From IMG/VR virus record IMGVR_UViG_3300005288_000010, positions 1 through 39,177 of that record: a DNA stretch of 39,177 bases. One strand, written 5' to 3'. This DNA is from a virus. Below are positions 10,650-26,091 of this stretch, piece after piece. Both the position numbers and the translations under genes were made by a program. How positions within the stretch are numbered: position 1 is the first letter of the stretch; the number at the start of each line of letters is the position of its first letter. The notes below the pieces were generated by a model. That model saw nothing but the letters and a program-made list of their open reading frames with translations. It did not search any database and had not been told where the DNA came from.

Positions 10650-10725
10650 TGGAGCATCACACTGGATTCGAACCAGCATCAGGCGGAATAGAACTCCGCT
10701 GCATTATCCGTTATGCTAATGACGC
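10650..10725 (-). tRNA. tRNA-Arg (anticodon UCU)
   Basis: Read on the minus strand, all arms fold. The acceptor stem is GCGTCAT with GTGATGC (7 bp, two G-U). Positions 8-9 are TA. The D-arm is GCAT-AACGGATA-ATGC with GG in the loop. The anticodon arm is GCGGA-GTTCTAT-TCCGC, which places TCT at 34-36. The variable loop is CTGAT. The T-arm is GCTGG-TTCGAAT-CCAGT. Discriminator T is followed by an encoded CCA. UCU reads the AGA codon, which is rare in many proteobacterial hosts. Encoding the CCA end and an intact T-loop suggest a functional gene. Confidence 0.95.
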
Positions 10726-11876: not shown

Positions 11877-12205
11877 GTTTTGCACTCCGGCTTAATGTAC
11901 TGTGGGTTTCGTAAGGACTGCATGGCTGAAGCCGTTTCGCATTCATCAACAACCTTTCCCCAGTCGTTATGATGCACCGATACAGGACCCACAGGAACGG
12001 CGGCAAGGCATGCTTTGAACAGCTCGGCGCGCATGCATTGGTCATATTTTGCATGCACTGGAGCATCACACCCAGAGCATAGCAGCGCCACTATAACCAG
12101 GAGAAAGAGAATTCCCGGGCGGAACACGAACGACCACTTACGGAAGCCTACCCGCTCGACAGACATGCAGGCGAAGAAGCCAACCAGGATCAGCAGCAGC
12201 TTCAT
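11873..12205 (-). CDS. putative membrane protein or lipoprotein
   Basis: This 110-aa protein has two hydrophobic N-terminal stretches (MKLLLILVGFFACMS and GILFLLVIVALLCSGC). The second ends in LLCSGC, which resembles a lipobox. The remaining part has four further cysteines (CMRAELFKAC, DEC and the last Cys near the end) and would be periplasmic if exported. ATG 12205 overlaps the stop of the upstream gene. It might be an envelope-associated accessory protein such as a superinfection factor; that is speculation from topology. Confidence 0.6.
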   Translation of the reverse strand: MKLLLILVGFFACMSVERVGFRKWSFVFRPGILFLLVIVALLCSGCDAPVHAKYDQCMRAELFKACLAAVPVGPVSVHHNDWGKVVDECETASAMQSLRNPQYIKPECKT

Positions 12206-24678: not shown

Positions 24679-24866
24679 TCGAGCCAGATTTCCTCGCCAA
24701 AGCCTGCGCCCGTGAAAGCGCAGACGAAGAGGCCGCGATGTATGCCGAGATTTACGCGGAAGTCAAGGCAGAGCGCGAAGCCCAGGACTTGCCGCCAGCG
24801 CCGATCATGGTGGCGGCTGAGGCCGGAAGGAGACTGCGCCAAGAGTTGAGCATTCGCAATAAATAG
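24675..24866 (+). CDS. hypothetical helical protein
   Basis: ATG 24675 overlaps the previous stop and gives 63 aa, acidic and helical (MIEPDFLAKACARESADEEA, then AEVKAEREAQDL). It is the last gene before the structured RNA. No function is recognised. Confidence 0.55.
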   Translation: MIEPDFLAKACARESADEEAAMYAEIYAEVKAEREAQDLPPAPIMVAAEAGRRLRQELSIRNK

Positions 24867-24867
24867 C

Positions 24868-24896
24868 TTGCGGAATAACAAACAACTGCGTAGAAT
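24868..24896 (+). promoter_or_regulatory. sigma70-like promoter for structured RNA 1
   Basis: TTGCGG (24868-24873), a 17-base spacer and TAGAAT (24891-24896) form a good promoter. The predicted start is near 24903, three bases before hairpin P1. It begins just one base after the stop codon of the upstream gene. Confidence 0.6.
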
Positions 24897-24902
24897 CTGT
24901 TT

Positions 24903-25008
24903 TGTCGATGGGCCAACATCGAAGTAATAAGCCTTTGTTTTCTGTTTCTCTAGCGGCATGACCGCAACCTGTTGGCCCAGGGAGAGCAGAAAACAAAGGC
25001 TTTTTTTT
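24903..25008 (+). ncRNA. structured RNA 1 with pseudoknot and terminator
   Basis: P1 is CGATG-GGCCAA-CATCG (24906-24921). After a short A-rich linker, P2 is a perfect 16-bp stem (24929-24944 with 24987-25002), ending in eight T. The P2 loop contains the hairpin GCGG-catga-CCGC (24953-24965) and TTGGCC (24972-24977), which is complementary to the P1 loop; the pairing extends to 10 bp if P1 opens (24909-24918 with 24970-24979). The layout equals that of the minus-strand RNA at 18214-18325, though the sequences of the stems differ. It lies 300 bases upstream of the Bet gene. I do not recognise an Rfam family. Confidence 0.72.
24929..25008 (+). terminator. terminator stem-loop of structured RNA 1
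   Basis: A perfect 16-bp stem with a 42-base folded loop is followed by TTTTTTTT. It should stop most rightward transcription before the recombination operon unless overcome. Confidence 0.75.
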
Positions 25009-25308
25009 CGTCTGTACTCATCGACTAGCAAGCATACCGGCAAGGCAGGCAACAGGGTAGTTTGTGAAAGTGGAACTGGTGGCATAGCTCATGAAACACC
25101 ACACATAACGGCGTCGAAGTCAGCACCGTTTGAGCGAAAGGCTGACGAGTCAATGCGATTCCCACAGGATAGTGTTGTAAAGGACTCCGGCTATGTCTGA
25201 GTCCGCTCAAGCCCTAGGATATACCTGTAGAAGCATGATGTAGAAGTATCCCCTTAGAAGCAATCAACCTTACCTAATGCTGGCATAGTCTCAGCGGAAA
25301 GTTATCAA
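25009..25308 (+). other. structured leader of the recombination operon
   Basis: No gene is seen in these 300 bases. Three hairpins are clear: TGGTG/CACCA (25077-25101), GTCAGC/GCTGAC (25119-25146) and GGACTC/GAGTCC (25182-25204). Further on, GTAGAAG occurs twice (about 25227 and 25241) with TTAGAAG at 25254. This may be a long 5' untranslated leader with regulatory folding, or hold a second promoter that I cannot identify. Confidence 0.4.
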
Positions 25309-26091
25309 ATGACAAGCGCACTCGTAGTACAGCAAGTAACACAACTGGCCGAGCAATTCGGCATTCCTGAATCTGACGAACTGACTTCCGTATTGAAGGC
25401 AACTGCTTTCAAGGGGCAAGTGAGCGACGCTCAAATGTCGGCGCTCTTGATTGTGGCGCAACAATACGGCCTGAACCCTTGGACCAAAGAAATATATGCA
25501 TTCCCCGACCAAAATAACGGCATCGTCCCTGTTGTCGGCGTTGACGGCTGGTCACGCATCATCAATTCGCATCCTCAATTTGACGGCATGGATTTTGAGC
25601 AAGATGACGAGTCCTGCACATGCATTATCTATCGCAAAGACCGTACACGCCCTGTGCGCGTTACTGAGTACCTGAGCGAGTGCAAGCGCGGCGTCAAGCC
25701 TTGGCTGAGCCATCCTAAGCGCATGCTGCGCCACAAGGCACTGATTCAGTGTGCGCGCCTGGCATTCGGCTATGTCGGTATCTACGATCTGGACGAAGCC
25801 GAGCGCATCGTGGAAGTCAATCCGTCGCCAGCATATACGGCACGGCCAAAACCACGGAATGCAGCAGACGTTGCACAGCAAGCGCAAACGGTCGAATTCA
25901 GCGATAGCCATGAAAGCCTGCTTGCTGACTTGCTGGCCGTTGCTGAAACTGGTTCTACGGCGCTGGAAGAATCATGGGGCCGCATCACCAAGGACGAGCG
26001 CAAAGCTTTGGCGTCGCACCTCAACAACTTGAAAGCGATTGCCGCCGAAGTTGACTCAAAAACCATCGAACAAGGAACCGAAAATGATTGA
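25309..26091 (+). CDS. bet: Bet/RecT-type single-strand annealing protein
   Basis: This 260-aa protein matches the lambda Red beta family (261 aa). It has FGIPESDELTSVLKATAFKG, VSDAQMSALLIVAQQYGLNP, WTKEIYAFPDQNNGIVPVVG, VDGWSRIINSHPQFDGMDFE, and HPKRMLRHKALIQCARLAFG. It anneals complementary DNA strands in phage recombination. The C-terminal part with HESLLADLLAVAETGS is the variable tail that contacts host SSB in homologues. It overlaps the exonuclease gene by 8 bases. The start has only a weak GGAAAG. Confidence 0.93.
   Translation: MTSALVVQQVTQLAEQFGIPESDELTSVLKATAFKGQVSDAQMSALLIVAQQYGLNPWTKEIYAFPDQNNGIVPVVGVDGWSRIINSHPQFDGMDFEQDDESCTCIIYRKDRTRPVRVTEYLSECKRGVKPWLSHPKRMLRHKALIQCARLAFGYVGIYDLDEAERIVEVNPSPAYTARPKPRNAADVAQQAQTVEFSDSHESLLADLLAVAETGSTALEESWGRITKDERKALASHLNNLKAIAAEVDSKTIEQGTEND

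Follow-up and report, generated by a model that had tools for sequence, protein, structure and literature searches.

A compact unit on the plus strand of an IMG/VR virus record, at positions 24903-25008 of the window (the whole 39,177-base stretch of DNA analysed here), combines a promoter, a hairpin and a terminator whose interior is complementary to that hairpin. The question raised by this locus is what such an arrangement, which contains more than a terminator needs, would control, and which of the sequences downstream it serves. The first-pass annotation had recognised a structured RNA, had listed an attenuator among the possible classes and had placed the element at the head of a Bet/Exo operon.

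The promoter, the 5' hairpin (P1), the terminator and the self-complementary inner loop were all found on reading the sequence, much as first described. The promoter (24868-24896, plus strand, as are all features below unless stated) comprises a -35-like TTGCGG at 24868-24873, a 17-nt spacer and the -10 box TAGAAT at 24891-24896. The 17-base spacing stands, but the -35 box is weak; the promoter matches 8 of the 12 consensus letters and was missed by a strict 9-of-12 promoter scan. The transcription start is predicted at ~24903-24904, next to segment A (GTCGATGGG, 24904-24912), which is the 5' strand of P1. P1 itself (24905-24922) has the stem TCGATG/CATCGA, conserved across the module family, and the loop GGCCAA (24911-24916). 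This loop and its flanks make up segment B (TGGGCCAACA, 24909-24918), the complement of segment B' (TGTTGGCCCA, 24970-24979) over ten bases if P1 opens.

The terminator stem is a perfect 16-bp helix with its 5' arm at 24929-24944, delimited by sequence, folding and family covariation, and its 3' arm at 24987-25002, running into a U-tract of eight T at 25001-25008. Two small hairpins are enclosed by it: P2a (24953-24965, GCGG-CATGA-CCGC, from folding) and the 4-bp P2b (24968-24981, CCTG-TTGGCC-CAGG). A 4-bp hairpin and the sequence TTGGCC, complementary to the P1 loop, had both been noted previously; what had not been seen is that TTGGCC (24972-24977) occupies the loop of another 4-bp hairpin, so that the contact would be a loop-loop ('kissing') pairing, extendable to 10 bp. 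Beyond the U-tract lies segment A' (CTCATCGAC, 25017-25025), a complement of A and its second possible partner, with a calculated A:A' duplex energy of -12.1 kcal/mol. The unit folds at -46.3 kcal/mol (z = -6.1), and none of 200 shuffles was equally stable; 24903-25008 has the stable hairpin and directly following U-tract by which an intrinsic terminator is recognised in sequence. When the two stretches of the window were subjected to mononucleotide shuffling, a complementary run of at least 10 arose in 0.14% and of at least 9 in 0.6% of cases, and exchange of 5' regions against terminator interiors between loci gave a run of 10 in 0 of 1806 combinations. The conservation seen in relatives weighs far more as evidence than any such probability from a single sequence.

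Comparison with Rfam, at gathering thresholds and at E values up to 5, assigned the unit to no credible family. C4 antisense RNA, P4 immunity RNA and isrK all went unmatched in 24700-25400 at E 5 or below, the window element matched no known riboswitch family, the motif is absent from Rfam 15 and no description of the module was found in the part of the literature covered. The search did reveal an Rfam RNA directly downstream, RF02932 (Betaproteobacteria-1 RNA; 25028-25150, 58.2 bits against a gathering threshold of 49.4, E 2.2e-8), which had been missed by the first-pass annotation, as had the A:A' pairing. It begins ~20 nt past the U-tract on the same strand as the module, and no gene lies between. 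The match concerns 25028-25150 only and the unit falls outside that model. It represents the 5' part of a longer conserved RNA, the 3' continuation of which (25151-25240), also outside the Rfam model, was located by alignment with a relative, L003, and is present in phage RF02932 loci. The bet gene (25309) and then exo lie downstream of RF02932.

The first relatives were loci encoding a related Bet protein, among which the region was found only in L002, a 98.8% copy, and in L003, a divergent version with ~70% identity. Both the P1 loop and its partner are altered in L003 (GGGTGGAGC / GCTCCACCC, against GGGCCAAC / GTTGGCCC in the window), as are one pair of the stem and the small hairpin, P2a showing a compensatory change to GCCG/CGGC. 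Matched loops were seen again (GTGTGGGC / GCCCACAC) in L157, from a bacterial genome found via RF02932. A pattern scan with GTCAATGCGATT..CCCAC was discarded; it returned only two true relatives and its remaining matches were due to chance. A pattern taken from the RF02932 core recovered 118 IMG/VR contigs, many with the module upstream. The same layout was present in ~40 non-redundant units beside RF02932 and in 63 (partly overlapping) found via the terminator-stem sequence alone, and the module, its letters differing from case to case, is found in well over a hundred virus contigs.

The specificity of the loop pairing was assessed by exchanging partners between loci. For 43 non-redundant units adjacent to RF02932 the longest complementary run was 7.4 nt with the unit's own partner and 5.4 nt with exchanged partners, and the sum of runs was 318, compared with a mean of 235 and a maximum of 260 over 20,000 permutations. 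A second set of contigs was sought by terminator-stem sequence only, which avoids selection on RF02932 or on the loops. The larger group of this set, 54 non-redundant units, gave 7.1 nt against 4.8 nt and a sum of 383 against a permutation maximum of 293. Every one of these 54 units has a 7- or 8-nt exact loop match, drawn from 18 distinct loop sequences.

Alignment by MAFFT alone placed the pairing loops one column off in part of the family, and fixed-register rows were used instead; L359 and L408, in which the inner arm is one base longer and fully paired in a shifted register, were left out of these. In 26 distinct rows of one subgroup the pairing helix was 100% paired, falling to 28-46% when slid out of register, and the whole-structure score was 0.569 as opposed to 0.204 in shuffles. 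Changes on both sides were found in 5 of the 7 pairs of this helix, a count that is inflated by kinship among the sequences, which raises the exchanged-pair values as well. Both-side changes with no broken pairs are hard to explain other than by real pairing, and the loop pairing is, on this comparative reading, not a product of chance. Unpaired drift of the P1 loop and of TTGGCC in homologues, the outcome that would speak against the pairing, was looked for, and the relatives were found to have kept the pairing by covariation.

The terminator stem also covaries, 13 of its 18 consensus pairs having changed on both sides, and the T-tract is conserved in all aligned units. Of 65 family promoters, 37 have the -10 box 12 nt ahead of the pairing loop and 20 more have it 13 nt ahead (57/65); the window has the modal distance of 12 nt. 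The mean -10 match across the family is 4.8 of 6 letters, compared with 3.0 in shuffles. Comparison among relatives establishes the anatomy, the covariation of B with B' and of the stem, the fixed promoter position and the tie to RNA-like stretches downstream. The description of a structured RNA exceeding a simple terminator is upheld. These data indicate that the module is a real, covariation-supported RNA motif, and apparently an undescribed one.

The proposed link to the Bet/Exo operon did not survive. A covariance model of the module (R1) recovered the window and L003, both of which had been used to train it, and found no module in 82 further loci chosen for their related bet gene. At E below 0.01 it hits 38 of 94 loci, almost all of them obtained through the RF02932-core scans, and since it misses L157 it is not exhaustive. 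As 82 bet loci are without the module, which recurs before RF02932 or RNA-like stretches amid unrelated genes, it is not tied to Bet/Exo, and a Bet/Exo-specific leader was ruled out. The sequence just before bet, at 25268-25311 of the window (around GCTGGCATAGTCTCAGC...AAGTTATCAAATG), is conserved in bet loci that have no RNA module; bet therefore has a leader signal of its own. A model of the unit matched none of 294 bacterial genomes, but it was run with strict filters and no positive control, which makes this negative uninformative.

The genes neighbouring the module vary (helicase and primase, methyltransferase/ParB, terminase, primase/helicase). RF02932 was single copy in all 37 phage contigs tested, and its occurrence as one copy per phage in varied places weakened a further candidate, that RF02932 is an operon-wide antiterminator of the put type. 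Three RF02932 matches, two of them above the cut-off, were seen in one bacterial genome (G696; L162, L167, L168), in contrast to the single copy in phage contigs. Some RF02932 loci have no module, many of these with an upstream gene ending 12-18 nt before RF02932, and the module is thus not required for RF02932 in every phage.

RF02932 is, in turn, not the only sequence that follows the module. By profile search, only 8 of 83 newly found module contigs with enough sequence had an RF02932-like match downstream; the remainder run into different recurrent, non-coding-looking sequences, mostly starting within ~20 nt of the U-tract. Short anchor motifs divided 149 module loci into 70 RF02932-like, 66 in five other groups and 13 others. 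At least five non-RF02932 groups follow the module, with the motifs GTACTCC-CACG, GACTCGGACA-CATGCGG, CGGACTCCATCCG, GTCAG-GCGCGTTAGCT and CCTCAGAGCGGGTTAGCTAA (example loci L361, L362, L366, L367, L369, L376, L378 and L419). Searched against Rfam, 19 non-RF02932 module loci gave no match except tRNA and int-alpA elsewhere on the contig. Judged by their appearance these stretches are likely to be structured RNAs; consensus folding of the downstream RNAs from MAFFT alignments gave poor results in the two largest groups.

Several further features of these loci were recorded. The RF02932 RNA continues ~105 nt past the Rfam model to a ...GTCCACCA motif (for example in L171, L175, L170 and L178). 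In its 3' domain, the 7-11 nt after an internal GGCTCC are the same as the 7-11 nt following CACCA outside the conserved RNA, with letters that differ from phage to phage (6.8 nt own against 4.0 nt exchanged; sum 299, permutation maximum 210); to judge from the letters, the stretch beside GGCTCC looks like an internal copy of flanking sequence. Some contigs have tRNA genes a short way upstream of the module (L366:896-1060, L421:330-683), and nearby tRNA genes have been reported for the GOLLD and ROOL RNAs. The phage record of the window also contains a tRNA gene, at 10653-10725 on the minus strand. When the window stretch was compared at nucleotide level with known phages and plasmids, nothing was found, and searches of known phages with the relatives gave only partial matches, one to Acidovorax phage AP1 and others to two phage records from spring water. 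The genome of AP1 (L438, OM049504.1), an isolated phage, has an unannotated RF02932-like stretch at ~11895-11984, with a primase on one side and a gene annotated as glycoside hydrolase on the other; the module was not found in AP1, and is carried by another of these known-phage matches, L439. No paper naming RF02932 or Betaproteobacteria-1 RNA was found in the portion of the literature covered.

Many members of the family carry sequence past the U-tract that is complementary to the 5' arm and loop of P1. This pairing comprises 16 pairs, including one G-U, in L003 (GTCGATGGGGTGGAGC / GCTTCACCCCATCGAC; the window counterpart is GTCGATGGG / CTCATCGAC) and 13 pairs in L433. Own partners again exceeded exchanged ones (sum 294, permutation maximum 267), with a weaker signal in the RF02932 set, and only some members of the family show the pairing clearly.

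The order in which these pairings could form was followed by folding RNAs of increasing length. In the predictions for the window, P1 forms at 24 nt and opens in favour of B:B' at 78-85 nt. The terminator stem, with P1 re-formed, takes over from 92 nt, A:A' appears at 128 nt, and B:B' holds at 14 of 24 lengths. In a test in which B was picked as the longest complement, favouring its detection, and only nested folds were admitted, 41 of 42 units passed through some intermediate length at which B:B' had the lowest energy, and the terminator won in 41 of 42 finished RNAs. Within nested folds, then, an alternative pairing is predicted to form before the terminator is complete and to compete with it, as in an attenuator. 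Such predicted folding is what a timed attenuator should show and lends support to one, short of proof.

Taken together, the observations make it somewhat probable that the element serves as a control module at the 5' end of a phage RNA, in which a promoter and an intrinsic terminator act as a self-pairing attenuator for the RF02932 RNA. The attenuator is the best supported of the classes suggested at the outset, and we infer control of termination from it. The RNA would begin at segment A and P1 would fold first. Once B' had been made, the P1 loop (B) would pair with it, and this would be the most stable nested fold until the 3' arm of the terminator appeared; the long stem would then displace B:B' and P1 would re-form. 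Polymerase could stop at the U-tract, releasing an RNA of ~106 nt. On read-through, A and part of B would pair with A' just beyond the U-tract, closing a domain joined to RF02932. The balance between B:B' and the stem would set the amount of full-length RNA, the target being RF02932 and whatever is transcribed after it. On this reading termination would be partial, B:B' would delay rather than aid the stop, and some signal would set the balance.

Of the other readings the most durable, although unlikely, is that the terminated ~106-nt RNA is the active product, a trans-acting immunity-type RNA that pairs through B or B' with nascent copies and forces or relieves termination, like the CI RNA of P4. 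The letters of B and B' would then be a recognition code, which would explain why they differ between relatives; many distinct B sequences do occur among close relatives (18 in 54 units), always matched in cis, and the succession of a short terminated RNA and a read-through RNA complementary to it resembles P4 and IsrK (PMC4825925). Against this, neither C4 nor isrK was matched in Rfam even at E 5, and pairing in cis accounts for the data without a trans step. A broader version of the idea is rather improbable: a widespread, undescribed phage RNA control system in which one 5' module, with its promoter, kissing-loop terminator and hypervariable self-matched recognition sequence, drives several large phage RNAs, the sequence serving as a trans immunity or incompatibility code by which each phage regulates only its own RNA.

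An independent small RNA with its own terminator, in which B:B' merely shapes the molecule or hides a seed and RF02932 is an unrelated neighbour, seems improbable too. A promoter and terminator do bracket a compact unit, which also precedes stretches other than RF02932, but in most members only a short gap separates it from the downstream RNA, and its 5' strand shows covariation with sequence past the U-tract, for which a separate small RNA would have no need. Since nested folding programs cannot score a pseudoknot, B:B' and the full stem might coexist rather than compete, and a compact pseudoknotted terminator could strengthen or time the stop. By estimate, P1 and the pairing helix (~12-14 bp) with a short linker roughly match the length of the stem, so coexistence is feasible; the stem, however, is already very strong alone (-46 kcal/mol for the whole unit) and a constitutive stop right before a conserved RNA makes little sense, and this reading is quite improbable. 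Chance juxtaposition of an ordinary terminator and an ordinary hairpin, for which only the shuffles of the window sequence with runs of at least 9 could speak, is refuted by covariation in independent loci and deserves practically no credence.

The comparison made here turns a hunch from a single sequence into a covariation-supported motif of well over a hundred virus contigs. It supplies an orphan Rfam RNA, RF02932, with a candidate promoter, start and regulatory element, and the same module fronts other unclassified RNA-like stretches. Because the loop sequences are matched, they can be mutated and re-paired directly, which makes the role of the large phage RNAs testable. The module is apparently an undescribed form of transcription attenuator attached to phage RNAs, with a regulatory action that would follow from its pairings.

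Among known systems, RF02932 lies directly downstream of the module in the window and in many relatives; its Rfam model omits the upstream module and the conserved 3' part, and the module also precedes other RNA-like stretches. GOLLD and ROOL are large structured phage RNAs of unknown function (PMC7567579), and Rfam matched neither of them in the window or in 19 further loci that carry the unit. The put RNA of HK022 is ~70 nt long, forms two stem-loops in a phage leader near the promoter and affects termination through polymerase, at distant terminators as much as 10 kb from it (PMC9378689). The module is likewise a phage leader RNA near a promoter, but its layout differs, and kissing-type loop pairing does not figure in the part of the put description covered here. 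In the Gifsy-1 prophage, one promoter gives rise to the short terminated IsrK and to a read-through RNA, with an effect on translation of the latter (PMC4825925). The predicted RNAs of the module share this layout, one short and terminated and one from read-through; the effect on translation sets IsrK apart, and the locus of the module has no isrK match in Rfam. The C4 RNA of P1 and P7 is a short RNA from the start of a phage transcript, and complementary segments in the same transcript control termination. In P4 immunity, too, a short RNA (CI RNA) comes from the start of the phage transcript, and complementary segments of that transcript (seqA/seqC) control termination (PMC4825925). The module resembles both in having a short RNA at the transcript start and complementary segments in the same transcript, and departs from them in placing the complementary partner both within the loop of the terminator and beyond it.
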